Source of the DNA: Qipengyuania intermedia
GTDB lineage: Bacteria; Pseudomonadota; Alphaproteobacteria; Sphingomonadales; Sphingomonadaceae
Reading direction: 5' to 3'
DNA length: 64,000 nt
NCBI RefSeq assembly: GCF_019711615.1
Contig: NZ_JAIGNS010000001.1
Coordinates: 248,001 to 312,000, forward strand
The notes beneath the pieces were generated by a model. The model saw only the letters and a list, made by a program, of their open reading frames with translations, did no database searches and was not told where the DNA came from. Below, piece after piece: positions 4,881-25,088 of the stretch. Both the position numbers and the translations under genes were made by a program. The stretch's first letter is position 1. Each line of letters begins with the position of its first letter.

Positions 4881-4974
4881 GGTCGTTATCTCTCGTTCAA
4901 ATTGCTGTGCCGCATCCTTGCGAATCTACGGCGCACCCGTCGACCCACCTAGGGCGGGCCCGGAAAGAAGCGTG

Positions 4975-5003
4975 CCGTTAGGCGAATCCCGCCATCAAGT
5001 CAA
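4975..5003 (-). promoter_or_regulatory. Candidate sigma-70 promoter of rplU-rpmA
   Basis: On the minus strand TTGACT (5003-4998), a 17-base spacer and TAACGG (4980-4975) lie about 95 bases upstream of the rplU start. The -35 is strong, the -10 moderate. No other promoter-like pair is evident in this gap. Confidence 0.45.
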
Positions 5004-5060
5004 CGCTGGCAGCTGGCATTTTTTGCCTTTCACGCTGGCGCGCTTCCTGCCGCATGCTAT

Positions 5061-5582
5061 GTGAGCGCGATGCTGCGAATTGCAAGTTTAACTACCGGTC
5101 TTGTCCTCACCCTCGGCGGGTGTGCCGCTTCGAGCGGGGATTATCCCTCGCTGGCCATCAGGGATGTGGAGCGAGTGGAGGGCAGTTTTGCCTCTCCCGA
5201 GCGGAAATCGATCGATGTCCCCGAAGTGGAGACCGATCTGACCGGCGAGCTGGACCAAGTTCTGCCGGCCCTCGTCTCCAGCGCAGAAGACGCCCATGCG
5301 CAATTCTTGCGGCTGGCACCCAGGGCCCAGCGCCTGGTCGCAGCTGCGGCAGGCACCGCGGACGGCTCCCCCGCTTGGGCGAGCGCTCAAGTCGCACTGG
5401 CCGAACTGGAATCGGCCCGCAGCATCGCGGCAGTGCCTTTGGGTGATATCGATACGCTCTACACCGCGCGGCGGGTTGCTGCCGAAGATGTGACCGCGAT
5501 CGAGCGGGCACGCCAGCGTATCCTCGAGCTGGTCGGCGAAGAAGACCGCACGCTCGCGCAGCTACGCGAACGTGCGGACTAG
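5061..5582 (+). CDS. Predicted lipoprotein, function unknown
   Basis: A 173-residue protein with a signal sequence ending in lipobox LGGC (Cys about 21), so a lipid-anchored envelope protein. The start is GTG 5061 or ATG 5070; no clear ribosome site distinguishes them. The mature part is rich in Ala/Glu and largely helical (for example LAQLRERAD at the end), with no motif I recognise. Close homologues would be expected mainly in Sphingomonadales. It stands alone, divergent from rplU and convergent with the small membrane protein gene. Confidence 0.75.
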   Translation: MSAMLRIASLTTGLVLTLGGCAASSGDYPSLAIRDVERVEGSFASPERKSIDVPEVETDLTGELDQVLPALVSSAEDAHAQFLRLAPRAQRLVAAAAGTADGSPAWASAQVALAELESARSIAAVPLGDIDTLYTARRVAAEDVTAIERARQRILELVGEEDRTLAQLRERAD

Positions 5583-5641
5583 AACGACAGGTTGAAAACG
5601 CGGGAGGCCAACTAGGCCAGCGCCTCCCGCGCTCCCCTCTC

Positions 5642-6067
5642 CTATCGCACGATCGATGCGATGGTGACTGCGACAATGCCCCAGCTGAAGACGATTGCCG
5701 GCAGGATCAGGACCTGGACTGCCGCATCGCGCATCGGGAGGCGTCCGGTGTGCGTGGCGATGCCCTGCGAACGAAACCGGCTCCAGTTCATCTGCTTCGA
5801 CTTTGTCTCGGGTGCGAGGCGCGTCCAGATCATCGGGACACCGAATCCGGCTACGATGAAGAAGGCGAATATGGCCATGGGGATAGCGAGCCCAGCGGTC
5901 GGAAGCCCGGTAGCCATGACGGCAAGGAAACCGAGATAGAGACCGACCGTCGCGACATAGAGGCCCTTCGGCAGTTCGAAGGTCCGGTCGACCTCGTGAT
6001 GCTTGACCGGGGCTTCGACGATGCGGGCCTGTTCGGCGACCAGTTCGCGGCTGAAGTGCTTAACCAT
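5642..6067 (-). CDS. Small integral membrane protein, function unknown, likely Fnr-controlled
   Basis: A 141-residue protein with an N-terminal soluble stretch (about 1-35, several His/Glu), two adjacent membrane segments (about 37-57 and 60-82), a basic loop and a third segment (about 115-137). No catalytic motif is recognised. The start ATG at 6067 has AGGAG 8-9 bases upstream. A perfect FNR-type box is centred 58 bases before the start codon, and the ribosome site lies in a hairpin arm. A role under oxygen limitation is therefore likely but unproven. Confidence 0.8.
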   Translation of the reverse strand: MVKHFSRELVAEQARIVEAPVKHHEVDRTFELPKGLYVATVGLYLGFLAVMATGLPTAGLAIPMAIFAFFIVAGFGVPMIWTRLAPETKSKQMNWSRFRSQGIATHTGRLPMRDAAVQVLILPAIVFSWGIVAVTIASIVR

Positions 6068-6072
6068 TGTGC

Positions 6073-6090
6073 GTCTCCTGTGTTGGAGAC
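6073..6090 (-). promoter_or_regulatory. Hairpin enclosing the ribosome-binding site of the small membrane protein
   Basis: In the transcript GUCUCC and GGAGAC can form a perfect 6-bp stem with a 6-base loop. The GGAG of the 3' arm is the Shine-Dalgarno sequence, six bases from AUG, so folding would mask it. Confidence 0.4.
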
Positions 6091-6118
6091 TTGATGGCGC
6101 TCACGGCCCACCGATTCC

Positions 6119-6132
6119 TTGATCGAGATCAA
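6119..6132 (-). promoter_or_regulatory. Perfect FNR/Anr/FixK-type binding box
   Basis: TTGAT-CGAG-ATCAA matches the Crp/Fnr-family consensus TTGAT-N4-ATCAA at all ten specified positions. It lies between moaE and the small membrane protein gene, centred 58 bases before the latter's start codon, which fits an activator site near -41.5. A weak -10 (CATCAA) follows at a slightly long spacing. Confidence 0.65.
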
Positions 6133-6142
6133 ATCGGCGAGA

Positions 6143-6610
6143 TTATTTCCAGCGCGCAAGGTCGCGCCGGTCTTGGTCGCGTGGTTCGATCCAGTGCCAG
6201 CCATCGTCGCGGCGCTCCCGTTTCCAGAACCAGGAGGCGGATTTGAGGTGGTCCATGAGGAAATCCACCGCATCGAAGGCCTCGCGGCGATGGGCGGATG
6301 CTGCGGCCACCAGCACGATCGGCTGCCCCGGCGTCATGATGCCCACCCGGTGCCAGACGAGCACTCCGGCAAGCTCGAACCTCTCCAGCGCCGCTTGGGC
6401 AAGCTCTTCCATCCCCGGAAGTGTGAGCGGCTCGTAATGAGTGAGCTCCAGCGCCTTTACATCGTCGTCGCTGCGGACCTTGCCAACAAAAGACGCAGTG
6501 CCGCCAGCGTCGGGATAGGATGCGTTGAAAGCTGCCAGCGCTTCGCCGATGGACATCCCGCGATCAAGCAGGCGCACGTCACGCGGTGTCGACAGGGAAA
6601 GCCTAGCCAC
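6143..6610 (-). CDS. moaE: Molybdopterin synthase catalytic subunit MoaE
   Basis: A 155-residue MoaE: HRREAFDAVDFLMDHLKSASWFWKRE-region (about 108-133) carries the conserved Arg and two lysines that act in sulfur transfer, and HYEPLTLPGMEE (58-69) is also typical. It adds two sulfurs from MoaD thiocarboxylate to precursor Z (cPMP), making molybdopterin in the cytoplasm. The GTG start at 6610 overlaps the end of moaD by 8 bases, so translation is probably coupled. It is the last gene of the train that begins near folB. Confidence 0.95.
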   Translation of the reverse strand: MARLSLSTPRDVRLLDRGMSIGEALAAFNASYPDAGGTASFVGKVRSDDDVKALELTHYEPLTLPGMEELAQAALERFELAGVLVWHRVGIMTPGQPIVLVAAASAHRREAFDAVDFLMDHLKSASWFWKRERRDDGWHWIEPRDQDRRDLARWK

Positions 6611-6845
6611 CGCTCACCGGGGGGAGGAGTGCTACCTCATCTCCGTCCTCTGCCAGTAGCGCAGTCTTGTCGGCCAGGACGCGGCCATTGCAGGCGATGT
6701 TGACGCGTTCTTCGCGAAGTTGTGCGGCGACTTGGGGACTCACGGTCCGAAGCAAGCGATCCCAGTCGAGCGTGCCCTCGACCTGCATGTCATCCTGTCC
6801 TGCCAGGTCCCGCAGGGGTCCGAGGAACAGGATCCGAACGCTCAC
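6603..6845 (-). CDS. moaD: Molybdopterin synthase sulfur-carrier subunit MoaD
   Basis: An 80-residue ubiquitin-fold protein ending PPVSGG; the terminal Gly-Gly is the site of thiocarboxylation. The FLGPLRDLAG opening and the 'VNIACNGRVLADK...DGDEVALLPP' pattern are diagnostic. It starts with GTG in a GTGA overlap with the preceding small-protein gene and overlaps moaE at its 3' end, so the subunits of the synthase are translated in tandem. Confidence 0.95.
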   Translation of the reverse strand: MSVRILFLGPLRDLAGQDDMQVEGTLDWDRLLRTVSPQVAAQLREERVNIACNGRVLADKTALLAEDGDEVALLPPVSGG

Positions 6846-7147
6846 TGCGAAGCCGCGAGATAATGCCCGGTCACGCCCGGTGCTTTGCCAAGATAGTCTA
6901 CGATTCCGTCGAGCGCAGCGCCCTCGCCTGCCGCGACGTTTACGCGGAGCGGCGTATATTTGCGCGCCAGCATCGCTGCGGCGGCGCGGCGCCATTCGGT
7001 GTGGGTATGGTCGGCTGACGGCATGGTGACGACAACGTCCTGCCCGCCAGACAGCGCCCGCTCTATCGGATCGAGCCAGTTTTGGTGAAACAGCCCCGCA
7101 GCGGCAAGCGGTTCTTCCGGCAGGCCCTCGACCCCGATCCGCTTCAT
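6842..7147 (-). CDS. Small conserved protein, Rossmann-like, function unknown
   Basis: A 101-residue protein starting MKRIGVEGLPEEPLAAAG. The alternation of short hydrophobic strands (QDVVVTMP, PLRVNVAA) and Ala-rich helices suggests a small Rossmann-like fold, but there is no complete dinucleotide motif. The start overlaps the folB stop by one base (TGATG) and its stop overlaps the moaD start, so it is tightly embedded between folate and molybdopterin genes. A role in pterin metabolism is possible by context only. Confidence 0.7.
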   Translation of the reverse strand: MKRIGVEGLPEEPLAAAGLFHQNWLDPIERALSGGQDVVVTMPSADHTHTEWRRAAAAMLARKYTPLRVNVAAGEGAALDGIVDYLGKAPGVTGHYLAASQ

Positions 7148-7518
7148 CAGCGGCGCTCGCGATGCAACGTGATCCCGATCTGCTCGCCCGCTTCGGCAAT
7201 CGCCAGCTTGACGATCTTGACCGTCACAGCCTCGACGCGTTTGTCCTGCAGGAACAGAGTTTCGCAAACGTGATCGGCGACCGCCTCGATCAGCTTGAAG
7301 TGCACGCCCTCCGGGAGCGCCTCCGAAGCGGCGAACTTGAGATCCATGTAATTCTTGGAATCGTCGAGCGAGGTGTCCGCATCGTAGTGCGGCAGCGGTT
7401 TCATCCGGACCTGGATCGTGAAGCGCAAAGGCTGGGGCTTACCAGTCTCTTCGGAGTAGATGCCGGTGAGGACATCATGTTCGAAGTCCGCAACTTCGAG
7501 GATCAGCGAATCGTTCAT
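7147..7518 (-). CDS. folB: Dihydroneopterin aldolase-like protein FolB
   Basis: A 123-residue protein of FolB length and pattern: LILEVADFEHDVLTGIYSEE near the start resembles the 'l.l.g.G.E..' entry of the family, followed by D-D-S-K-N-Y-M-D-L (about 52-60) and the 'IEAVADHVCETLF' helix (78-90). FolB cleaves dihydroneopterin to 6-hydroxymethyl-dihydropterin in folate synthesis. The canonical glycine-rich entry is altered, so substrate could differ (for example epimerase-type). AGGGGG precedes the ATG. Confidence 0.8.
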   Translation of the reverse strand: MNDSLILEVADFEHDVLTGIYSEETGKPQPLRFTIQVRMKPLPHYDADTSLDDSKNYMDLKFAASEALPEGVHFKLIEAVADHVCETLFLQDKRVEAVTVKIVKLAIAEAGEQIGITLHRERR

Positions 7519-7526
7519 GGGTCCCC

Positions 7527-8417
7527 CTAACCCGGATTGGACCAGCGTGCGAAAATCGCAGTGGGCAAATGCCGTCCGTTCTCGCCGGTTTCGCGTACCG
7601 CAAGGTCGCCATGTTCGATCTTGCCGGGCAGGTCGGCGAACACCTCTTCGAGAAGTCCGCCAAGCGCGAGGCTGCTCATCCTGACAGCATAGACCGTCAG
7701 GAACAGGAAGCTGCTGTTTTCGTCCAGCAGCTTGCGGCAGTCGGAAACCAGTTCGGGAAGGCCGTCCTCAAGTCGCCAAGTTTCGTTCTTCGGGCCGCGG
7801 CCGAATTTCGGCGGATCGAGGATGATGCCGTCGTAGCGATTTTCCCGGCGAACCTCGCGTGCGGCGAACTTCATCGCATCGTCGACCAGCCAGCGGATCG
7901 GGCGATCTTCCATGCCGGAAAGCGCAGCGTTCTCGCGGGCCTGCGCAACCGATTTCTTGCTGGCATCGACATGCGTCACCCGGCCGTGGCGGCTGAGCGC
8001 GAGCGAACCGACGCCGGTGTAGCCGAACAGGTTCATGGTCTCCGCATCGGTGCGCCCGTCGAGCTGGCTTCGCATCCAGTCCCAAACCGGCGCCATGTCG
8101 GGGAAAAATTGAAGGTGGCGAAAGGGCGTCGGCTGTGCGGTAAAGCGGACCTCGTCGTAACCGAGGGTCCAGCCTGCTTCCGGCAGGCTGCCGTCACGGT
8201 GCCAGCGGCCCCCGCCGTCCTCGTCTGCGCCCGGAATGAATTCCCCATCCGCCTGCCAGTCGTCGTTTCGCGGCGACCACATGGCCTGCGGTTCGGGGCG
8301 GATGAAACTGTAATCGCCGAAGCTCTCCAGCTTGCGGCCATGCCCGCTATCGAGCAGGCGATAGGCATCCCAGCCCTCCCCGACCATAAGCATGGGATCG
8401 CGCACGAGCTCAGCCAT
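7527..8417 (-). CDS. Class I SAM-dependent methyltransferase (RlmI/RlmL-like, PF10672-type)
   Basis: A 296-residue protein with SAM motif I NLFGYTGVGSLALSRHG, acidic motif VDASKKSVAQARENA, and motif IV LDPPKFGRGPK, the arrangement of 23S rRNA cytosine-5/guanine-N2 methyltransferases. There is no N-terminal PUA domain, so it is shorter than E. coli RlmI (about 396). An N-terminal part of about 90 residues (WSPRNDDWQADGEF) is conserved in alphaproteobacterial members. ATG 8417 overlaps the thrC stop (TGATG). The nucleic acid target is inferred. Confidence 0.85.
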   Translation of the reverse strand: MAELVRDPMLMVGEGWDAYRLLDSGHGRKLESFGDYSFIRPEPQAMWSPRNDDWQADGEFIPGADEDGGGRWHRDGSLPEAGWTLGYDEVRFTAQPTPFRHLQFFPDMAPVWDWMRSQLDGRTDAETMNLFGYTGVGSLALSRHGRVTHVDASKKSVAQARENAALSGMEDRPIRWLVDDAMKFAAREVRRENRYDGIILDPPKFGRGPKNETWRLEDGLPELVSDCRKLLDENSSFLFLTVYAVRMSSLALGGLLEEVFADLPGKIEHGDLAVRETGENGRHLPTAIFARWSNPG

Positions 8418-9808
8418 CAGGCCGCGTGCTCCAGGATGTGGGCACGCACGGCCTCGTAGGTGCCGGGCAATTCCACATAGCTTTCCTCGCGCGCGAACAG
8501 GTCGCCCACGCGCGTCGGCAGGGGCGGACGCAGCCCGGTCGCCCTTTCCACGGCATCGGGGAACTTGGCCGGATGAGCCGTCGCGAGCGTCACGACGGGG
8601 ACCGTCGGGTCTATTCCCGCCACACGAGCTGCATGGAGGCCGATAGCGGTATGCGGATCGAGCATTTCGTCGCACTGCTCGAAAGCCCAACGCATCGCTT
8701 GCGCCATGTCGTCCGCATCGGCGCGAGCGCTCGCGAACAGGGAAGCTGCGCCTTCGCGCTGCGCATTGGTAAGCCGCATGGCTTTTTGCGCATCGAAGGC
8801 CGCCATCTGGTCGGCCATCGCAAGGCCATCGCGCCCGCCGACGTCGAACAGGAGACGTTCGAAATTGGAGCTGACCTGGATGTCCATGCTGGGCGCAGCG
8901 GTGGCGGTCACGGTGCCAGTCGAGTAGTCGCCGTCCGCCAGCGCGCGATGCAGGATGTCGTTCACATTAGTGGCGACCAGAAGCTTTTCGATCGGCAGGC
9001 CCATCTGCGCCGCTACGTGGCCTGCAAAGACGTCGCCGAAATTCCCGGTCGGTACGCTGAAGGCGACCTTGCGCTCCGGCCCACCCAATTGGAGCGCGGA
9101 GGTGAAATAGTAGACCACCTGCGCCATCAGCCTGGCCCAGTTAATGGAATTGACCGCGCCGATCCGGTGCTTTGCCGTGACGTCGGCATCGGCAAAGATG
9201 CGCTTCACCATCGCCTGAGCATCGTCGAAACTGCCATCGATGGCGATGTTGTGGACATTGGGCGCGCGCACCGTGGTCATCTGGCGGCGCTGGACGTCGC
9301 TGACCCTGCCCTTGGGGTGCAGCATGAAGATTTCGACGTTGTCGAGACCCGCGACGGCATCGATCGCCGCACTGCCGGTATCGCCGCTGGTCGCCCCGAC
9401 GATCGTCAGGCTGCCCTCTTCGCGGGCGAGAAATTCCTCGAACAGGAGGCCGAGCATTTGCAGCGCCACGTCCTTGAATGCGAGCGTGGGACCATGGAAA
9501 AGCTCGAGCACCCAATGCTGCTCGTCCAGCTGCACCAGCGGGGTCACGGCCTTGTGAGCGAAGCGACCATAGGCCTTGGCCGTTAGCTCGCGCAGACGCT
9601 CGGGCGTCAGGCAGTCGCCGACGAAGGGCTTCATCACACGGGCGGCGACTTCGGCGTAAGGCAGACCGCGCATGTCCGCGATCTGGTCCTTGGTGAACTG
9701 CGGCCATTCTTCAGGCACGTAAAGGCCGCCGTCGCTGGCGAGGCCGGCCAGTGTGACGCCTGAAAAATCGAGCGTCGGAGCGCTGCCGCGGGTGGAGACG
9801 TATTTCAT
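8417..9808 (-). CDS. thrC: Threonine synthase
   Basis: A 463-residue PLP enzyme starting MKYVSTRGSAPTLDFSGVTL, the class II (E. coli/yeast-like) threonine synthase entry. FHGPTLAFKDVALQ (about 104-117) carries the PLP lysine (about 112), GATSGDTGSAAI the phosphate-binding loop, and VPTGNFGDVFAG the substrate region. It converts O-phosphohomoserine to threonine. A start at 9847 would add 13 residues without support. The gene is linked downstream to the methyltransferase by a 1-base overlap. Confidence 0.96.
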   Translation of the reverse strand: MKYVSTRGSAPTLDFSGVTLAGLASDGGLYVPEEWPQFTKDQIADMRGLPYAEVAARVMKPFVGDCLTPERLRELTAKAYGRFAHKAVTPLVQLDEQHWVLELFHGPTLAFKDVALQMLGLLFEEFLAREEGSLTIVGATSGDTGSAAIDAVAGLDNVEIFMLHPKGRVSDVQRRQMTTVRAPNVHNIAIDGSFDDAQAMVKRIFADADVTAKHRIGAVNSINWARLMAQVVYYFTSALQLGGPERKVAFSVPTGNFGDVFAGHVAAQMGLPIEKLLVATNVNDILHRALADGDYSTGTVTATAAPSMDIQVSSNFERLLFDVGGRDGLAMADQMAAFDAQKAMRLTNAQREGAASLFASARADADDMAQAMRWAFEQCDEMLDPHTAIGLHAARVAGIDPTVPVVTLATAHPAKFPDAVERATGLRPPLPTRVGDLFAREESYVELPGTYEAVRAHILEHAA

Positions 9809-9859
9809 CGTAAGAAGGCGGTTAGCGAGGTGCCGCGCACCGGGCAAGCAAGCGGCTCT

Positions 9860-10438
9860 TTAATCGTCTTTAGCGCGCGTGCCACGCCGACGCAGGGCAA
9901 GGAGGTATATGACGAGCGCTGTCAGTGCGAAGAAGAACCACTGGCCCGCGTAGGCGAGATGATTGTTCGGGAGGTTGCGCGGATCGGGACTGGCGAGAGG
10001 TTCGAGACCTGCCAGGCCTTCTCCAGACACCACACGTCCGCCGGGCGCGATAGTGCCGCGTACTTCGCCGCCGTCCCATTCGACCGGTTGCGGACTCCGC
10101 GAAAAACCGAGATCGACAATAATGGTCCGGCCATCTGCCAGGACGCAGCTCGCCCTGTGCGCCATGCCTTTTGCACCGCGGCTATTGGTGCCAGCGACCG
10201 TCGTGGTGTTCGTTACATCCTCGCAGGCAACGGTGGTCCTGCGGTAAAGCACATCCTCGATGCCTGCCGCATCGTCCGGGTAGCCGACTTCAGACGACAT
10301 GCGCAGCGATTGCTCGGCTTGCGCAATGAGCGCCTCCTTCTCGTCCATCCTGCCCAACTGCCAGAAGCCGAGCGCGATCATCACGGCGATGGCAGCGGCC
10401 ACGATGATCGTGGGGATGACGGGAATGCGGGTGATCAT
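9860..10438 (-). CDS. SURF1 family cytochrome oxidase assembly protein
   Basis: A 192-residue SURF1/Shy1 homologue: an N-terminal membrane segment (about 7-24) followed by FWQLGRMDEKEALI, a periplasmic domain, the conserved NNHLAYAGQWFFFALTAL (about 158-175) starting the second membrane segment, and a short basic tail. SURF1 helps insert haem a into subunit I of aa3-type oxidases. It follows ctaE after a 13-bp hairpin, so its expression may be reduced relative to the structural genes. Confidence 0.93.
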   Translation of the reverse strand: MITRIPVIPTIIVAAAIAVMIALGFWQLGRMDEKEALIAQAEQSLRMSSEVGYPDDAAGIEDVLYRRTTVACEDVTNTTTVAGTNSRGAKGMAHRASCVLADGRTIIVDLGFSRSPQPVEWDGGEVRGTIAPGGRVVSGEGLAGLEPLASPDPRNLPNNHLAYAGQWFFFALTALVIYLLALRRRGTRAKDD

Positions 10439-10462
10439 GGTGTCACTGTCTCATTCGAAAGC

Positions 10463-10500
10463 GAAAGGGGCAGCCGCGGCAATGCCGGGCTGCCCCTTTC
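10463..10500 (-). terminator. Hairpin between ctaE and SURF1 (partial terminator or stabiliser)
   Basis: Perfect 13-bp arms GAAAGGGGCAGCC / GGCTGCCCCTTTC around a 12-base loop. It lies 24-61 bases after the ctaE stop and ends 25 bases before the SURF1 start. The weak T tract (TTTCGCTTTC) suggests attenuation or 3'-end protection of the cox mRNA rather than full termination. Confidence 0.65.
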
Positions 10501-10523
10501 AATATCCGGCAAGCCGGAAGGCA

Positions 10524-11345
10524 TTAGTGGAATTCGGCTCCCCAGCCGCCCCAGACGTAGACGACGGCAAAGAGGAACAGCCACACGACGTCGACGAAGT
10601 GCCAGTACCACGCAGCCGCTTCGAAACCGAAGTGCTGGCGGGGCGTGAAGTGGCCCTTGTAGGTACGCACGAGGCAGACGATTAGGAAGATCGTGCCAAC
10701 AAGCACGTGGAAGCCGTGGAAGCCGGTCGCCATGTAGAAGGCCGAGCTGTAGGTGTTGCCGCCGAACGCGAACGGAGCGACGCCGTACTCGTAAGCCTGA
10801 ATCAGGGTGAAGACGGCACCGAGGATGACAGTGAGCCAAAGGCCTTTCTTCAGACCTTCGCGGTCGCCGTGGATCAGCGAGTGGTGCGCCCAGGTAACCG
10901 TAGTGCCCGAGCAGAGCAGAATCATCGTGTTCAGCAGAGGGAGGCTGAAGGGATTGATCACTTCTTCGATCGCCGCGGGGGGCCAGACGCCGCCCACCAC
11001 TTCGGAGATTTCCGAGGGGAACAGGGCGAAATCGAACCAGCTCCAGAACCAGCCGACGAAGAACATCACTTCGGAAGCGATGAACAGGATCATGCCGTAA
11101 CGCATGTGCAGCTGGACGACCGGCGTGTGATCGCCGCGCTCTGCTTCCTTCACGATATTGCCGAACCACGCGAAGAACGTGGCGATCAGGCCGGCGATGC
11201 CGAGACCGAGCACGAGGTGCGCGCTGGCCATTTCGTGCATGTAGAGCACCATGCCGCTGGTGAAGGTAAGCGCCGACAGCGAGCCGATCAGCGGCCAGAT
11301 ATCGGGTTCGAGGATATGATATTCGTGATTGACGTTGCCAGCCAT
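10524..11345 (-). CDS. ctaE: Cytochrome c oxidase subunit III
   Basis: A 273-residue seven-helix subunit III; N-terminal EYHILEPDIWPLIGS, the RGDHTPVVQLHMRYGMILFI segment near residue 80, and the C-terminal HFVDVVWLFLFAVVYVWGG are family hallmarks. It is part of the aa3-type oxidase whose subunits I and II are encoded upstream on the same strand. It stabilises proton uptake into subunit I. The gene follows ctaG by 67 bases and ends before a strong hairpin. Confidence 0.97.
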   Translation of the reverse strand: MAGNVNHEYHILEPDIWPLIGSLSALTFTSGMVLYMHEMASAHLVLGLGIAGLIATFFAWFGNIVKEAERGDHTPVVQLHMRYGMILFIASEVMFFVGWFWSWFDFALFPSEISEVVGGVWPPAAIEEVINPFSLPLLNTMILLCSGTTVTWAHHSLIHGDREGLKKGLWLTVILGAVFTLIQAYEYGVAPFAFGGNTYSSAFYMATGFHGFHVLVGTIFLIVCLVRTYKGHFTPRQHFGFEAAAWYWHFVDVVWLFLFAVVYVWGGWGAEFH

Positions 11346-11412
11346 TATACTCGCGTCCTGTATTCGCGTTATAGCGCTGCCCTTAAAGCGCCATGGCGCG
11401 CGGGTCTAGGGT

Positions 11413-11985
11413 CTACTCTGCAGAATCTAGCGCGCGGTGGAAAGTATAGGAAAGCGTGATCTGCTCGACACCTTCCATGTTGGGATCGTCCAGCGCCTTG
11501 GGATCGACGAAATACAGCACCGGCATGCGGACTTCCTCACCGGGCTGGAGCGTCTGCTCGGTAAAGCAGAAGCACTGGATCTTGTTGAAATATGCGCCCG
11601 CCTGGACCGGCATGACGTTGAACGTCGCCGTACCGGTGATCGGCTGGTCGGAATTGTTCTTCGCGACGTAGATAGCCATGTCGCGCTGGCCGATGGTCAC
11701 GGTGTCGGTCGGCTGCTCCGGCCTGAAGCTCCATCCGAGACCGGGCGCGACCGAACCATCGAACCGGATCGAAATCTGCTTCCCGCCGGCGGCCTGGCCC
11801 ATGCGCTCTGCAAGGCTGGCTTCGCTTTCGGTGGCGCGCTGTGTCGTACCGCCGAAGCCAGTGACCTGGCAGAACAGTTCGTAAAGCGGCACCGCTGCAT
11901 AACCGAGGCCAAGCATGGCGGCAGCGCCGAGCAGAGCCAGCATCGCGGTACGGGTCTTGCGTGTCTCCAGCGTAGCGGCAGTCAC
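11413..11985 (-). CDS. ctaG: Cytochrome c oxidase assembly protein CtaG/Cox11
   Basis: A 190-residue Cox11: one N-terminal membrane anchor (about 15-35), then a periplasmic immunoglobulin-like domain with the copper motif CFCFTEQ (about 138-144) and Y-F-V-D-P. It delivers copper to the CuB site of subunit I. GTG start 11985 has AGGA about 6 bases upstream, and the gene begins 7 bases after the stop of the tiny CoxF-like gene. Confidence 0.96.
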   Translation of the reverse strand: MTAATLETRKTRTAMLALLGAAAMLGLGYAAVPLYELFCQVTGFGGTTQRATESEASLAERMGQAAGGKQISIRFDGSVAPGLGWSFRPEQPTDTVTIGQRDMAIYVAKNNSDQPITGTATFNVMPVQAGAYFNKIQCFCFTEQTLQPGEEVRMPVLYFVDPKALDDPNMEGVEQITLSYTFHRALDSAE

Positions 11986-11992
11986 TGTATCC

Positions 11993-12112
11993 TCACATCC
12001 TCACGATCGTGATCATGTAGAAAAGCACGGCAAGAAACAGAAGGATTCCGCCAAGGACGAGATTGCGGCTCTTCTGGCGGCGCTTGAATTCGGCTTCTTC
12101 TTCGGGGGTCAT
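11993..12112 (-). CDS. Tiny CoxF-like membrane protein of the oxidase operon
   Basis: A 39-residue frame: [17 protein letters not shown], then one hydrophobic helix (about 19-35), ending VRM. The short acidic/basic head plus single helix matches the small proteins often encoded between ctaB and ctaG in alphaproteobacteria ('CoxF'). ATG overlaps the ctaB stop (ATGA). It is too short for many gene finders; position and coupling make it credible. Its function, presumably in oxidase assembly, is not established here. Confidence 0.78.
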
Positions 12113-13029
12113 AGGGCGGCTCCGTATTGGGCGGCGATGCGATCCACGACCAGCACCGCGAAAAGGGCGAAGAGGTACAGCACGCTATAGCCGAAAAGGC
12201 GCTTTTCCGGGAGCATCTTGTCGCCTTCTACCGGCTCGCGAAAGGCGACCGGAACCGACAGCGCAAGGAAAACGAGCGAGAGCACAGAGGCCGAAATCCC
12301 GTAGATCGCTCCGGTTCCGCCGATCAACCATGGCGCAATGGCAATGGGAAGCAGGATGACGGAATAAGCCAGGATCTGGCGACGCGTCGATTTGGCGCCC
12401 TTCACCACCGGCATCATCGGAATGCCGACCTTCGCGTAATCGCTTTGCACGAACAGCGCGAGCGCCCAGAAATGCGGCGGCGTCCAGGTGAAGATAATCG
12501 CGAACAGCAGCACCGGCATCAGGGTGATGTCTCCGGTGACGGCTACCCATCCGATCAACGGCGGGAAGGCCCCTGCCCCGCCTCCGATGACGATATTCTG
12601 CGGCGTGCGCGGCTTCAGCCAGATCGTGTAGATCACCGCATAATAGACGATGGACAGCGCCAGTATCGCCGCCGACAGCCAGTTCACCGCCAGGCCCATG
12701 ATCACCACGGAGGCGGCGGATATCAGGATGCCGAAGTCGCGGGCGTCGGTGCGCTGCATCTTCCCGGTCGGCAGGGGACGCTGCGAGGTGCGCTTCATTT
12801 CCGCGTCGATGTCCGCTTCCCACCACTGGTTGAGAGCGGCCGCCCCGCCCGCGCCGAGCGCGATGCAAAGGATGGCGGTGAAACCGATCACCGGATTGAT
12901 GCTGCCAGGCGCGGCGAGCAGGCCGCACAGGCCCGTGAAAATCACGAGGCTCATCACGCGCGGCTTGGTCAGCGCGTAAAAGTCGCGCCAGTCCGCCGGG
13001 AGCTGGGTTGTGGGGGCTGCTTGGGTCAT
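12109..13029 (-). CDS. ctaB: Protohaem IX farnesyltransferase (haem O synthase)
   Basis: A 306-residue UbiA-family membrane prenyltransferase with the first Asp-rich motif [21 protein letters not shown]-region (about 67-87) and [14 protein letters not shown]. Eight or nine membrane segments are visible. It farnesylates haem b to haem O, the precursor of haem a for the aa3 oxidase encoded in this cluster. It lies between the hydrolase gene and the CoxF-like gene; the promoter is not obvious and read-through from ctaD is possible. Confidence 0.97.
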
Positions 13030-13109
13030 GGGATTCGCTGGGGAGCCCTATACCTTGTTCCAAGGTCCTGTCCAAGCCGTCTCCGAAAGGCAGGTTGACC
13101 CACGAGTGT

Positions 13110-14069
13110 TTAGAGTTTGCCGAGCCATTCGAGCAGCAGCTCGTTGACTTCCTCCGGCCGTTCCTGCTGCGTCCAGTGGCCGACATTGTCGAGGATGTGG
13201 CCTTCGATCTTAGGTGCGAAAAACTTCATCATGCCGACGGGATCGGTCACCGCCCCGAAGAGGAAGGTCGCCGGATCACGCGTACCGCCGATGAAAAGCG
13301 CCGGCTGTTCGATGCGTTTGCCCTTCCAGCCCTGCAGCCATTCGTAATCGGCCACGTGATTGCGATACCGGTTAAGCGGACCGCGAAAGCCTGACGCCTT
13401 GAACTCCGCCTCGTAGAAATCGAGGTCCTCGTTGGTGAGCCACGGCACTGGCACCGGATCAGGCAGTCCTTCGAGGAAGGTGGCGCCATAGGGCTTGTCC
13501 CAATAGCTGCCCGGGGGAACGTCGCCGCTGATCGAGTACATCATCCGGTGCACCCAGTCGCGCGGGTCCTTCTCGGCCTCTGCTTCGGCCACGCCCTCGG
13601 CCTGGAAATACTCCTGGTAGAAGTACTTTCCCTGCGATGTGAAGTGTTCGTGGAATACCTCGGTGAACGGACGCTGCGGCACGCCGGCGAAAGGTACGGA
13701 TAGTCCCGCCACCGCGCGGAAGTGTTCGGGATGGGTCAGCGCAGTGTTCCATACGATGGGCGCGCCCCAATCGTGCCCGATGAGGATCGCCGGCTGGTCC
13801 GGCTGCAATGCCATCTTCAGGCCGACAAGATCGCCGACGATTTTCTCGAGCGCGTAGGCTTCGACCGGGTGCGGCTTGTCCGAACCGCCATAGCCGCGCA
13901 CATCGATCGCACAGGCGGTAAAGCCTGCCTCGGCAATCGGCCCGATCTGGTGCCGCCAGCTATACCAGCTTTCCGGAAACCCGTGGACCATGATGACCAG
14001 CGGGCCCTCGCCGTCGACGGCACAGCGCAGGCTCAGCTCTCCGACATCGATCATCTGCATTTCAGGCAT
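13110..14069 (-). CDS. Epoxide-hydrolase-like alpha/beta hydrolase
   Basis: A 319-residue alpha/beta hydrolase with HGFPESWYSWRHQI (about 29-42, oxyanion hole HGFP), nucleophile elbow GHDWG (Asp about 100) and a C-terminal 'LDNVGHWTQQERPEEVN' histidine region. The Asp nucleophile and cap region fit soluble epoxide hydrolases or haloalkane dehalogenases rather than esterases. It is inserted in the oxidase cluster between ctaD and ctaB, just after the ctaD terminator, with no obvious link to respiration. Confidence 0.87.
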   Translation of the reverse strand: MPEMQMIDVGELSLRCAVDGEGPLVIMVHGFPESWYSWRHQIGPIAEAGFTACAIDVRGYGGSDKPHPVEAYALEKIVGDLVGLKMALQPDQPAILIGHDWGAPIVWNTALTHPEHFRAVAGLSVPFAGVPQRPFTEVFHEHFTSQGKYFYQEYFQAEGVAEAEAEKDPRDWVHRMMYSISGDVPPGSYWDKPYGATFLEGLPDPVPVPWLTNEDLDFYEAEFKASGFRGPLNRYRNHVADYEWLQGWKGKRIEQPALFIGGTRDPATFLFGAVTDPVGMMKFFAPKIEGHILDNVGHWTQQERPEEVNELLLEWLGKL

Positions 14070-14089
14070 CCGGGCATTTCCTTAGCGCA

Positions 14090-14123
14090 AAACAAAACGG
14101 CCGATCCCTCATGGGACCGGCCG
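14090..14123 (-). terminator. Rho-independent terminator after ctaD
   Basis: On the minus strand CGGCCGGTCCC pairs with GGGATCGGCCG (one mismatch) around a short loop, followed by TTTTGTTTT. It lies about 28 bases after the ctaD stop and about 20 bases before the start of the hydrolase gene. Confidence 0.8.
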
Positions 14124-14150
14124 CTTTGTCATGTCCAGCTATAGCTACGC

Positions 14151-15866
14151 TCAGGCCGTTGCAGGCTTCGCATCGCCAATGTGGTCGTGGTGGTCGTGAT
14201 GCTCTTCGATCACCGGAAGTTCGCTGAACTGGTGGAACGGCGGCGGGCTCGACAGGCTCCACTCGAGCGTGGTCGCGCCTTCGCCCCAGTAGTTCGCTTC
14301 GGCCTTCTTTCCGGCCACGAAGGCATAGATGATGTTCGCGAAGAACAGGAGCATCGATGCTGCCATGATCATGTAGCCGAAGGTGCTGATCTCGTTCCAG
14401 TAGGTGTAGGCATCCGCATAGTCCGGATAACGGCGCGGCATGCCCTGCCAGCCCAGGAAGTGCTGCGGGAAGAAGATCACGTTCACGCCGATGAAGAAGC
14501 CCCAGAAGTGGAGGTGCGACAGAAGCTCGGAGTGCATCCGGCCGCTCATCTTCGGGAACCAGTAATAGAAACCGGCGAACATCGAGAACACTGCGCCCAT
14601 CGACAGGACGTAGTGGAAGTGGGCAACCACGAAGTAGGTGTCGTGTACCACGTCGTCCACGCCGCCGTTGGCGAGATAGACGCCGGTCACGCCGCCCACG
14701 GTGAAGAGGAAGATGAAGCCCAGCGCCCAGACCATCGGCGACTTGAACTCGATCGAACCGCCCCACATCGTGGCGATCCAGCTGAAGATCTTCACGCCGG
14801 TCGGGACCGCGATGACCATGGTCGCTGCGGTGAAGTACATCTTCGTGTTCACGTCGAGGCCGACGGTGTACATGTGGTGTGCCCACACGACGAAGCCGAC
14901 GACGCCGATCGCGACCATGGCGTAGGCCATGCCGAGGTAGCCGAAGACCGGCTTGCGGCTGAAGGTCGCCACGATCTGCGAGATCATGCCGAAGCCCGGC
15001 AGGATCATGATGTAGACTTCAGGGTGACCGAAGAACCAGAACAGATGCTGGTACAGGATCGGGTCGCCGCCGCCTGCGGGATCGAAGAAGGTCGTGCCGA
15101 AGTTACGGTCGGTAATCAGCATGGTGATTGCTGCTGCGAGAACCGGCAGGGCCAGCAGCAGCAGGAATGCGGTGACCAGCACCGACCATACGAACAGCGG
15201 CATCTTGTGCAGGGTCATGCCCGGCGCGCGCATGTTGAAGATGGTGGTGATGAAGTTCGTGGCACCCAGGATCGAGCCAGCGCCCGCAAGGTGCAGCGAG
15301 AAGATCGCAAAGTCGACTGCCGGACCGGTGGAGCCCGAAGTCGAAAGCGGTGCGTAAACAGTCCAGCCCACGCCTGCACCCGGCCCGATACCGCCGGGAA
15401 CGAAGAGTGAGAACATCAGCGACAGGAAGCCCGCCACCGTCAGCCAGAACGAGATGTTGTTCATGCGCGGGAAGGCCATGTCGGGGGCGCCGATCATGAG
15501 CGGCACGAACCAGTTACCGAAGCCACCGATCATGGCGGGCATGACCATGAAGAAGACCATGATCAGGCCGTGCGCCGTGATAAACACGTTCCACATGTGC
15601 AGCGCGCTGTCGATATCGGCTGCGCCGCCCATCAGCTGCGCCCAGTACTGGAGGTACTGGATGCCCGGTTCGGCCAGCTCGGCACGCATGATGCCCGAAA
15701 TCGCGCCACCAATGATACCCGCGAAGATCGCGAAGATCAGGTAGAGCGTACCGATGTCCTTGTGGTTCGTGGACATGAACCAGCGCGCGAAGAAGCCGGG
15801 CTTGTGGTCGGCATCATGCGCGTGGTGGTCGTCGTGGGCCTGGAAGCTGTCGGCGGTAGTGGCCAT
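14151..15866 (-). CDS. ctaD: Cytochrome c oxidase subunit I (aa3 type)
   Basis: A 571-residue subunit I with a His/Asp-rich N-terminal head (residues 10-22), twelve membrane segments, [17 protein letters not shown] carrying the CuB His and cross-linked Tyr, the HHMYTVG CuB His pair, and [12 protein letters not shown] with the haem a/a3 ligands. It reduces O2 and pumps protons in the inner membrane. It follows coxB by 53 bases and is followed by a terminator. Confidence 0.98.
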
Positions 15867-15919
15867 CTTGCTATACTCTCGAATGCGTTTTCGTCAGCGG
15901 ACTGGAATCTAAAGCGTAA

Positions 15920-16972
15920 TCAGGTGGTCGGGTTTTCGACCGGGAATGCACCGGCACCGGCAGCACCTTCGACGGTGCTTTCCGGTTCCTGCAGCGGGGC
16001 GAGATCGGCGTTCAGATCGCCGGTTTCTTCTGCGCCGGCGATCGTACCGCCCTGCGCAAGGACCCACTGGTTGTACTGTTCCAGCGGAAGCGCCTCAACC
16101 GTGATAGGCATGTAAGCGTGACGGGCGCCGCACAGTTCGGAGCACTGTCCGTAATAAACGCCCGGCTTTTCGACCATCAGGATCTTCTCGTTGAGACGAC
16201 CCGGCACGGCGTCGAGCTTGAACCACAGGCTCGGCACGGCGAACGAGTGGATCACGTCGGCAGCGGTAATCTGCATACGGATCGGAACGCCGACCGGCAC
16301 AACCATGCGGTTGTCGACGGCGAGCTGCGTAGGTTCGCCGCGAGCTTCGGCCTCGGCATCGTCGAGCATGTTCGAAATGATCTCGAACTCGCCATTGTCG
16401 GGATAGGTGTAGCCCCAATACCACTGGTAGCCAGTCGCCTTGATGGTGATGGCATCCTTGGGGATCGGCTCGTACTGCTTGGCGATCAGCGTGATCGAGG
16501 GGATCGCGATGGCAAGCAGGATGAGGGCCGGAACAACCGTCCAGATGACTTCGATCAGCGTATTGTGGCTGGTCTTCGAAGGCGTCGGATTGGCCGAGCG
16601 GCGGAAACGGAACATGGTGTAGAGCATCAGCACGAGAACGAAGAGGCTGATCGCGACCATCACCCAGATGAGACCGGTGTGGAGGCCATACGCGAATTCG
16701 CCGGTTTCCGAGAACTGCTGCTGGATATCAATGCCTGCATCGACCGGCATGCCGATACCTTCGGTCGGCTTCATCGGCGTGTAGGCGCCGCTACCTTCCG
16801 TAACGGCACCCGGATCGGCAACGTCTGCCGCGTCTGCCGGATCGACAGATTCGAGCTGTTCGGTGGCGTTGGCTTCTGCTGCATCCTGCGCGATCGCGGC
16901 CTGCGATCCCAAGAGTAGGGCGAAGGCCATTGCCAGGCTGGCGACAATCCGGTGGAAACCGAGGAATTTCAT
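15920..16972 (-). CDS. coxB: Cytochrome c oxidase subunit II
   Basis: About 350 residues if started at MKFLGFHRIV, which begins a signal peptide ending AIAQ; MTRKSAK at 16996 is an alternative start. Two membrane helices follow an acidic linker, then the cupredoxin domain with the CuA site GQCSELCGARHAYM. YQWYWGYTYP is the electron-entry region. The subunit takes electrons from cytochrome c. The acidic 50-residue stretch after the signal (AANATEQLESVDPADAAD) is longer than usual. It heads the cox cluster and is divergent from pyrE. Confidence 0.96.
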   Translation of the reverse strand: MKFLGFHRIVASLAMAFALLLGSQAAIAQDAAEANATEQLESVDPADAADVADPGAVTEGSGAYTPMKPTEGIGMPVDAGIDIQQQFSETGEFAYGLHTGLIWVMVAISLFVLVLMLYTMFRFRRSANPTPSKTSHNTLIEVIWTVVPALILLAIAIPSITLIAKQYEPIPKDAITIKATGYQWYWGYTYPDNGEFEIISNMLDDAEAEARGEPTQLAVDNRMVVPVGVPIRMQITAADVIHSFAVPSLWFKLDAVPGRLNEKILMVEKPGVYYGQCSELCGARHAYMPITVEALPLEQYNQWVLAQGGTIAGAEETGDLNADLAPLQEPESTVEGAAGAGAFPVENPTT

Positions 16973-17195
16973 CGTCTTGGCACTCTTTCGTGTCATGTCA
17001 TCGTCCGGGACTGAACCTCGCTGAGTAGGCCGAAAGAGTACCTTCGGCGCACGGGCTAGCGACCCTGCAACGAGGGCCCGGTTGGGCCGCCTATAGATAG
17101 ACATGGCCAATGCCTCAAGCGCTGGGGGCAGAAAAATATGCATCCTGCATTGCCTCTTGCGCAATCGGGCCGGACGCGCTTTGAGCCAAGGCGAC

Positions 17196-22872: not shown

Positions 22873-23013
22873 ATGCTGGGACTGTTCGACGTCTTCGACG
22901 TCTACGAAGGAAATGGGAAAATCAGGGCGAGCCGCCGCGGAAGATTAGCCCGGCTGGTCGCCTTCGCCATTATCGCTCTCCTTTTCGTCCTGACAATCCG
23001 CACTCTCTGGTAG
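22873..23013 (+). CDS. 46-residue single-helix membrane protein, function unknown
   Basis: MLGLFDVFDVYEGNGKIR, a basic patch (ASRRGRLAR), then one membrane helix (about 26-43), ending TLW. GGGAGAGGG lies 8-16 bases before the ATG, a strong ribosome site. It follows ruvX by 14 bases in the same direction and is convergent with the peptide-cassette gene. Length, ribosome site and charge pattern make it a likely real small membrane protein; no family is recognised. Confidence 0.62.
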   Translation: MLGLFDVFDVYEGNGKIRASRRGRLARLVAFAIIALLFVLTIRTLW

Positions 23014-23020
23014 AGCGCTA

Positions 23021-23908
23021 CTACAACGCAGCTCTTTGCAAAGCGGCTTCGGCTGCGATCAATCGATTGCCGCTCTGCTCTGCCCGCCGCCACAGGGCAT
23101 CCTGGCCTGCCTTATCCAGCAAGCCGCACCACGCCTCATAGCTGGCAAGGCGGAGCCTGTCGCTCGGATGCGACGTGCCCACCCATTCGGCGAAATCCAG
23201 CGCTTCCTCGGTGCCGATCCCGATGGCACAGCGCAGGAAGCATTCGGTCGATGTCGGATTGAGGATGCCCGTCACGGCATTGCTGTCGAGATCGAAGCCG
23301 TATTGATCCCACCAGCCCTTGGCCGGATCGACGTGCATGATGTTGAGGGAAACCGACAGCCTATCCGGCGGCAGTTGGGCGTGCACATCGCGGTGGGCGC
23401 GGTAGAGCATCATCCTGCCTTCGGACAGGGCTGAGCGCTCGACGAACCGCAACCCAGCCTGCTCACCGCGGAAACCGGCGACATCTTCGTAATCGTACTC
23501 GTGATAATCGCTCAGATAGCCCGGGCCGAAATAGCCTGCGGTGAGGAAACTGAAATTGTGGTCATGCGGTACGCCGTAGACGAAGGCTTTCGCTCCACTG
23601 GCTCGGACGCAGGCTTCGTCTTCGCTCGGCCAGATATTCGCGCGCAGGAAGAAACTGCCCATGTTGGGCGACAGGACGATCGCTTGCGGGCCGTAGCCGC
23701 TTTCCTGTCCCCCTCCGCGGTGGTTTTCTTTCAACTGTTCGATCAGGAGATCGGCGAGGAAAGAGCGGTCGTTGACTAGCCGCCGCATGGCGAGCGAGGC
23801 ATTCTTCAAACTGTCCTCATCCTCGGGATCGAAGCCGGTCGAGAGCATCTCGATGCATTCGTGCAAATCGTGAGAAACGTCATCGACCGTGTGGATTATG
23901 CGGGGCAT
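23021..23908 (-). CDS. Uncharacterised cupin-like protein B of the peptide cassette
   Basis: A 295-residue protein with AGGAG 7-8 bases before its ATG. A helical N-terminal part (1-75) is followed by a central region rich in metal-ligand-like residues: GVPHDHNFSFL (His-x-His, about 112-122), YLSDYHEYDYED (131-142) and RAHRDVHAQLPPDRLSVSLN (about 169-188), spaced as in cupin or cysteine-dioxygenase-type folds. The C-terminal 90 residues are helical (LRLASYEAWCGLLDKAG) and may be HEAT-like. It overlaps protein A by 13 bases. No known enzyme is matched; a metal-dependent peptide-modifying role is inferred from the neighbouring small peptide. Confidence 0.7.
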   Translation of the reverse strand: MPRIIHTVDDVSHDLHECIEMLSTGFDPEDEDSLKNASLAMRRLVNDRSFLADLLIEQLKENHRGGGQESGYGPQAIVLSPNMGSFFLRANIWPSEDEACVRASGAKAFVYGVPHDHNFSFLTAGYFGPGYLSDYHEYDYEDVAGFRGEQAGLRFVERSALSEGRMMLYRAHRDVHAQLPPDRLSVSLNIMHVDPAKGWWDQYGFDLDSNAVTGILNPTSTECFLRCAIGIGTEEALDFAEWVGTSHPSDRLRLASYEAWCGLLDKAGQDALWRRAEQSGNRLIAAEAALQRAAL

Positions 23909-24861
23909 GCGGCAAGCTCCTGTCCGGCCAGTTGGGGGTAGGTTTCGAGCAATTGCGCGCGCAGCGCTCCGGCAGTTGCGGCGAGAGGGTCGCCCGGATC
24001 GCTCGCCATGCGCGTCAGGGCCGCAAATCCCAGTCCGCTATCGAGCGCGAGGCATTCGCGCAGCGCCTGCCAGCGGGCATGATCGCTGCCCTCGCGGGTA
24101 AGCCGGGCGAGGACGGGTGCCGCATCGCGCCTCCCCATGCGGCCCAGCAAGGCCGCTTTCATTTCGCGACCGCTCTCGTGGCGGGATCCGTTGGCGCGGT
24201 GCAGCAGGCGGTCATCGTCGAGCGCATATTCGCGAGCATCGCATGGCACTTCGTCTGTCCTCGACAGGCGCAGCACCGCCATCCGACCGTGCACGCGAAC
24301 TATGGACTTGGTGTGGTTGTGGCCCGAAAAACGCATGATCTCGCCGGCCACCACTCGGCGTATCGTGCAATCGATCGCGGCACTGTCGCTCCGCTCCTCC
24401 AGCAATTCTAGGAAGCGGACATCGGCGCTTCCCGCGAGTACGGTCTCATGCCGCTCGCCGCCCGCGAAGCAGGCCGATTTCGCCTCGCTTGCGCCGAGTT
24501 CGGTATACATGAGCAGGCTCAGTGCCGCGCGGCCTGAATGCGCCAGCTGCAGGACACTGAGACCATCCGAATGCTGGTGACGGATGGGCACCTGGCCGAG
24601 CGGGTTCCGAGCCAGACAGGTCAGCATGGGCTGCATCAGCGCCGCGACCAGCCTTCGCGCATCTTCGCCTTCGCCAAACAGCGCATCCAGCGTAGGGCAA
24701 TCTCGCAATTGCGCGCCCTCGCCATACGCGTCGAGCTCGCGAAGCGCATCGGCAGCCTCGCCTGCGCGCCAGTCGTCGCGAACGCGCTCCAGCGCAAACT
24801 GCGCGTTGCGCTGCGAGGCAGGATCACCTCGCAGCGCGCGCAATTCCGGATCGATCCTCAT
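23896..24861 (-). CDS. Uncharacterised His-rich protein A of the peptide cassette
   Basis: A 321-residue protein with an architecture like protein B: helical N-terminus (1-85), a beta-rich core containing VPIRHQHSDGLSVLQL (about 92-107), AGSADVRFLELLEE, and MRFSGHNHTKSIVRVHGRMAVLRLSR (about 175-200), then a helical C-terminus (about 232-315) with repeated helix pairs such as APVLARLTREG and LLETYPQLAG. The GHNH and VHG residues could bind a metal. It begins 15 bases after the 53-residue peptide gene and overlaps protein B. No annotated family is recognised; A and B look like diverged paralogues. Confidence 0.68.
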   Translation of the reverse strand: MRIDPELRALRGDPASQRNAQFALERVRDDWRAGEAADALRELDAYGEGAQLRDCPTLDALFGEGEDARRLVAALMQPMLTCLARNPLGQVPIRHQHSDGLSVLQLAHSGRAALSLLMYTELGASEAKSACFAGGERHETVLAGSADVRFLELLEERSDSAAIDCTIRRVVAGEIMRFSGHNHTKSIVRVHGRMAVLRLSRTDEVPCDAREYALDDDRLLHRANGSRHESGREMKAALLGRMGRRDAAPVLARLTREGSDHARWQALRECLALDSGLGFAALTRMASDPGDPLAATAGALRAQLLETYPQLAGQELAACPA

Positions 24862-24876
24862 TGCGTAGAACCGGTC

Positions 24877-25038
24877 TTAGAGAAAGGCTTCAGGATCTAC
24901 GGTGTCGTAGACGTAGACCATGATCACAACCACGCGATCGTCCACGGTCGGACCGCCATTGGCGGAAAGGCTGCCGAAAAGACCGGTGACCGTGTCGAGA
25001 CCCGGCAGGCTGGAAATATCGATCTTGGGAAGATCCAT
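24877..25038 (-). CDS. 53-residue peptide, candidate modified-peptide (RiPP) precursor
   Basis: MDLPKIDISSLPGLDTVTG begins an acidic, leader-like half (1-26). SANGG (25-29) is a possible double-glycine boundary. The last 24 residues (PTVDDRVVVIMVYVYDT then VDPEAFL) are strongly hydrophobic with two Tyr and several beta-branched residues. GGGAG lies about 5 bases before ATG. The gene is first in a minus-strand set with two uncharacterised His-rich proteins (gap 15 bases), the arrangement of precursor plus tailoring enzymes. There is no Cys and few Ser/Thr in the C-terminal half, so a lanthipeptide or thiopeptide is unlikely. The role is inferred. Confidence 0.7.
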   Translation of the reverse strand: MDLPKIDISSLPGLDTVTGLFGSLSANGGPTVDDRVVVIMVYVYDTVDPEAFL

Positions 25039-25088
25039 TGTGTGCTCCCTGTTGCGCGGAGCCTGGCGTCGGTGCCGTGCTTTCGCCG

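Follow-up and report, generated by a model that had tools for sequence, protein, structure and literature searches.

PbsQ, a JmjC-related cupin hydroxylase, hydroxylates Orn in a biphenomycin-like pathway for ribosomally synthesized and posttranslationally modified peptides (RiPPs) that also involves an MNIO, a RiPP recognition element (RRE) partner protein, an arginase, and a B12-dependent radical S-adenosylmethionine enzyme (B12-rSAM) (PMC12257519). MNIO (DUF692) RiPP clusters have an iron enzyme and a partner protein beside a short precursor (PMC12257519). A cupin fold and a three-His layout are found in the thiol dioxygenases, which include cysteine dioxygenase (CDO), plant cysteine oxidase, and ADO. 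Here, we analyze a 64,000-nucleotide stretch of the genome of Qipengyuania intermedia (contig NZ_JAIGNS010000001.1, positions 248,001 to 312,000; referred to as the window, whose own numbering is used below), which contains a compact cassette (~2 kb) of three genes encoding a 53-residue peptide and two larger proteins, A and B. On balance, we favor the view that these three genes form a minimal operon of the RiPP type, belonging to a class not yet described, with an active-inactive pair of cupins in which B is an iron oxygenase that modifies the peptide.

The cassette would resemble the PbsQ pathway in having an oxygenase of the cupin fold whose substrate is a ribosomal precursor. It differs in that none of the four other components named above is among its annotated neighbors, and its cupin is of the thiol-dioxygenase type. 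Like the MNIO clusters, it has a putative iron enzyme (B) and a partner protein beside a short precursor, but neither A nor B matches DUF692 at E values of up to 1, and the two proteins are paralogous to each other. With the thiol dioxygenases it shares the cupin fold in the model of A and, in B, a three-His layout in which HDH and DxH are aligned. However, no match to CDO_I (PF05995) was found at E values of up to 1 in the window proteins, nor was one among the families listed for 48 members of B, and the cassette proteins carry an extra helical N terminus and a HEAT-like C terminus. They also form a probable active-inactive gene pair, and 108 of the 138 scored partner peptides (two of them counted twice) lack Cys; thus, the peptide is not a general thiol substrate, and cysteine oxidation cannot be the general reaction, though some other substrate may exist.

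Organization of the cassette

The features of the cassette in the window are as follows.

24877 to 25038, minus strand: peptide gene, 53 residues, precursor-like, MDLPKIDISSLPGLDTVTGLFGSLSANGGPTVDDRVVVIMVYVYDTVDPEAFL
25045 to 25050, minus strand: Shine-Dalgarno-like AGGGAG before the peptide ATG
24967 to 25038, minus strand: peptide codons 1 to 24, slow-evolving leader-like block, recognizable across the family; nonsynonymous rate (pN), 0.131
24904 to 24945, minus strand: peptide codons 32 to 45, second slow block and candidate hydrophobic core, variable among lineages; pN, 0.087
23896 to 24861, minus strand: protein A, 321 residues, with a helical N terminus, a thiol-dioxygenase-type cupin core without family-wide His, and a HEAT-like C terminus
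24193 to 24582, minus strand: beta-rich cupin core of A (residues 94 to 223)
23923 to 24183, minus strand: HEAT-like helical tail of A (residues 227 to 313)
23021 to 23908, minus strand: protein B, 295 residues, candidate iron oxygenase and paralog of A
23558 to 23566, minus strand: H115-D116-H117 of B, candidate ligands for a metal; each of the two His is present in all 48 rows
23381 to 23383, minus strand: H176 of B, third candidate ligand, in 47 of 48 rows

A preliminary description of this stretch had reported the gene order and strand, a gap of 15 bases between the peptide gene and A, an overlap of 13 bases between A and B, and a ribosome site before the peptide. All of these were recovered, with the three open reading frames (ORFs) at the minus-strand coordinates above and AGGGAG preceding the ATG. 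The 13-base overlap is kept in 20 of 21 loci (L001 to L021; L020, with 4 bases, is the exception), and purifying selection acts on the peptide (pN, 0.166; synonymous rate [pS], 0.503; pN/pS, 0.33; 91 pairs), which together indicate that the cassette is more than a chance arrangement. These rates are based upon 14 peptides of 53 codons from L001 to L026; among the 24 distinct loci in that range, nine with peptides of other lengths were excluded, as was L013, which is shifted by one codon.

The three-gene arrangement is a local copy of a widespread, unnamed cassette. In Pfam and NCBIfam at E values of up to 1, the peptide and B match no family, and the sole match of A is HEAT_2, below Pfam's cutoff. 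PDB sequence searches with profiles of A and B gave no credible relative. No phage record matched the cassette, and IMG/VR yielded one contig, matched at the contig edge. The closest named record found for B is from Qipengyuania nanhaisediminis (83% identity), and the window's genome has a single B match. Among the open PMC papers listed in our searches, no title or opening of an abstract describes a peptide-A-B system, which does not prove its absence from print.

The peptide

A profile of the first part of the peptide (16 training sequences from L001 to L027; threshold, 5 bits) detects a peptide ORF ahead of A at 136 of the 159 distinct loci, compared with 1, 0, and 0 of 159 for antisense, inside-A, and inside-B controls, respectively. 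Among the held-out loci, which are those outside L001 to L027, the counts are 112 of 135 and 0 of 135 for each control. (L013 and L023 [broken B] are doubled in the 161 scored rows.) A candidate peptide can be seen by eye in 20 of the other 23 loci, some of which (e.g., L063, L075, L076, and L186) show no leader motif. Whether a small peptide always precedes A and B had been posed as a check at the outset, and the answer is that it nearly always does. When B is clustered at 60% identity, 23 of the 36 clusters have a peptide above the threshold. A short encoded precursor adjoining tailoring genes, as is expected for a RiPP, is therefore the usual arrangement, with A and B as the presumed tailoring genes.

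Within the genus, both blocks of the peptide evolve slowly, and the linker (pN, 0.279) and tail (pN, 0.323) of the 14 peptides are faster. Across the family, the first block persists and the C terminus, which is hydrophobic and rich in Val and Ile, takes several forms, including DDRVVVIMVYVYE, GHDDTIIVIATIVYD, EVGGxxCxG, and DDLWIIAVILVYE. The combination of a conserved leader and a more variable core that characterizes RiPP precursors is thus present at the family scale, and the distinct C-terminal types suggest a set of related products.

Proteins A and B

Sequence comparison places A and B as diverged paralogs, as had been proposed. In a hand-picked alignment of 48 B rows without near-duplicates (L057 and L080 were left out), H115 and H117 are each present in all 48 rows and H176 in 47, so that there is almost no variation in HDH or in the second His of HRDVH. 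This His-x-His plus His aligns with the HDH and DxH of cysteine dioxygenase, a match to the 3-His pattern at the level of sequence. HxH followed by DxH was also found in 154 of 156 near-full B frames in a rough motif scan, which is loose, as L094 passes it with Arg at the position of H176.

Protein A is predicted well by the structure model, as a cupin of the thiol-dioxygenase type with a HEAT-like tail, which upholds the cupin-like fold first proposed for it; plant cysteine oxidases and ADO are among the folds that it matches best. Metal-ligand motifs had been proposed for both proteins, and HDH and HRDVH of B were retained, whereas those of A were not. In A, the two His of GHNH are found in 2 and 3 of 20 genus-level rows; VHG has its His in 15 of these 20 rows but in 4 of 44 family rows, and this poor conservation rules out both motifs as ligands. 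His 95 and His 221 are present in all 20 genus-level rows, but in the family alignment the best-conserved His column reaches no more than 18 of 44 rows (hand-picked, without near-duplicates; L067, L071, L082, L084, and the second A of L068 were left out), and A therefore looks like an inactive partner rather than the metal-dependent enzyme originally envisaged. Judging from these columns, A is probably the inactive member of an active-inactive pair.

Distribution and genomic surroundings

Our genome surveys are samples and not full sets. In the family of the window's organism, which we take to be Sphingomonadaceae in GTDB, B was found in 136 of 397 sampled genomes (46 of 96 genera) and A in 139 of 397, with 135 genomes common to both lists; the mismatches are G250, with only a B fragment, and G073, G230, G274, and G345, where the A matches are weak or partial and B is missing from the list. 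In a set of 61 genomes that includes the window's own, 23 have B, and every one of these belongs to the genus. Wider surveys gave 5 of 385 genomes for the class, one of them outside the family, and 16 of 398 for the phylum, three of them outside the class and one of these marginal (E = 8.1e-4). In 12 of 15 fetched genus regions, RuvX adjoins a thioesterase gene and the cassette is missing; a weak A match in L201 falls inside the penicillin-binding protein gene. Of the other three, G002 retains the peptide and has remnants of the two larger genes, G034 is missing the 3' part of A together with the 5' part of B, and the neighbors in G004 are different. B has no match in 15 genomes of the genus, and G002 is the only one of these to have kept the peptide.

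In the window, the cassette is flanked by RuvX on one side and by two thioesterase-superfamily genes and a penicillin-binding protein gene on the other. An ORF of 46 residues with a hydrophobic C-terminal segment lies between RuvX and the end of B (22873 to 23013, plus strand); matches to it (E < 1e-5) occur in about ten cassette-bearing loci of the genus and in none of the cassette-less regions.

The preliminary description had noted that no exporter is adjacent, which holds for the neighbors of the cassette in the window but not for two distant loci that have exporter genes in the same run. On plasmid pASTE61-200 of Alteromonas stellipolaris (L246; CP013927.1, 60122 to 76913), the cassette lies between two sets of ABC transporter genes, in the order Yip1-domain protein, HlyD, ABC ATPase, MacB/FtsX, two small ORFs, A, B, ABC ATPase, and ABC-2 permease. 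The A/B overlap is again 13 bases; in the record, nearly all of these genes are given as hypothetical, only the first ABC ATPase is named, and the two small ORFs are unannotated. One of these ends in ETVGAACFGIGMAVGVYLNQLR, which resembles the EVGGxxCxG form found in the window's family. In L068, a member of that family (4900 to 16982), the cassette is doubled and there are three candidate peptides; an ECF sigma factor gene lies upstream and exporter genes follow, with the second B leading via 4-base overlaps into HlyD, ABC ATPase, and FtsX permease genes, followed by MacB/FtsX and an ABC exporter. A plasmid of Vibrio sp. ED002 (L248, 7261 to 8817) carries a shorter A-B pair followed by an ORF of 59 residues, and this may be a remote variant of the cassette in which the peptide gene comes last.

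Queries for winged-helix regulators match 24 of 188 loci and an ECF sigma query matches 8 of 188 (loci of >3,800 bases, some of them overlapping pieces; matches were counted at any position). An OmpR-type winged-helix regulator stands next after B in 8 of 40 loci (L056, L059, L062, L069, L079, L080, L083, and L084; assigned by Pfam in L084 only). At four loci B is adjoined by a DUF2721 gene (f16), probably by coincidence.

Proposed function and alternatives

In the mechanism that we propose, the N-terminal block of the peptide (LPKIDISSLPGLDTVTGLFGS) would act as a leader held by the A-B pair. A would be a paralog that has lost its metal ligands and serves as a structural or leader-binding partner. 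B would bind a single non-heme iron at a 3-His cupin site like that of the thiol dioxygenases and, as an oxygenase, oxidize residues in the hydrophobic Val/Ile-rich C-terminal block. General proteases would trim the product, which dedicated ABC systems may export in some lineages. The use of iron, the oxidation, the binding of the leader by A-B, the export of the peptide, and the existence of a modified product are what we infer from these genes, and side-chain oxidation of the hydrophobic block is a guess at the reaction.

Several observations weigh against this proposal. The peptide is below the threshold in 23 of 159 loci, none is seen by eye in L143 (A truncated) or L187, L169 is doubtful, and clustering of B at 50% identity leaves a peptide above the threshold in only 5 of 13 clusters. 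The peptide frame is also open beside broken copies of both A and B (G002 and G034) and of B (G019 and G022). Pfam finds no RRE. The structure prediction for B (AlphaFold2, 20-row alignment) is poor (predicted local distance difference test score, 48.4), so that its fold rests on homology, and L094 has Arg in place of H176. In two comparisons, the profile match of B to CDO is modest (probability, 41 and 19) and that of A is weaker (3.2 and 9.5); of 9 CDO_I loci, L211 was left out, and L215 was kept though below Pfam's cutoff. Neither A nor B was matched by four further cupins taken as a set (probability, 0.1 and 0.3). The N terminus of B has a weak match to TFIIF (E = 0.066), which we take to be a winged helix. 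Finally, exporter queries match few of the 43 long loci by BLAST (HlyD, 1; ABC, 4; MacB, 0), a check with Alteromonas proteins that is insensitive, since the MacB query missed the MacB of L068.

The scarcity of exporter matches, the regulator genes at some loci, and the resemblance of the A model to plant cysteine oxidases and ADO would also suit an arrangement in which the peptide is unmodified and forms, with A and B, a stable complex or a sensor of oxygen or metal like the plant cysteine oxidases, with the peptide as a small regulatory subunit. We consider this unlikely. Between lineages the N-terminal block is kept and the C-terminal half switches from one type to another, which fits a leader and core better than a subunit, and the multiple peptides and exporter genes of L068 also argue against it, as does the lack, in most peptides, of Cys for a cysteine-oxidase reaction.

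The hydrophobic C termini and the exporter genes adjoining the cassette at two loci could instead indicate an unmodified membrane-active bacteriocin or toxin that A and B neutralize or chaperone. This seems improbable, as two paralogs of ~300 residues, one with a near-invariant metal-type triad, would make an odd antitoxin, the peptide frame stays open where A and B or B is broken, and the three window proteins have no match in PADLOC. Least credible, and already disfavored, is the idea that the small ORF, which ends 15 bases before A, merely serves as a translational leader that couples expression of A; the purifying selection on the peptide acts at the protein level, and the leader profile holds across the family.

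We thus retain the RiPP-type operon as the preferred reading. It is about an even question whether the cassette defines a new class of ribosomal product, made by an iron cupin of the thiol-dioxygenase fold and its dead paralog, both with HEAT-like tails, through oxidation of non-thiol side chains in a hydrophobic core, and common in Sphingomonadaceae as well as present on gammaproteobacterial plasmids. If this is true, roughly one in three of the family genomes sampled (136 of 397) would have a system for peptide modification with enzymes that, apart from HEAT repeats, match none of the curated families searched, and peptide chemistry would have been built on a fold familiar from thiol oxidation.
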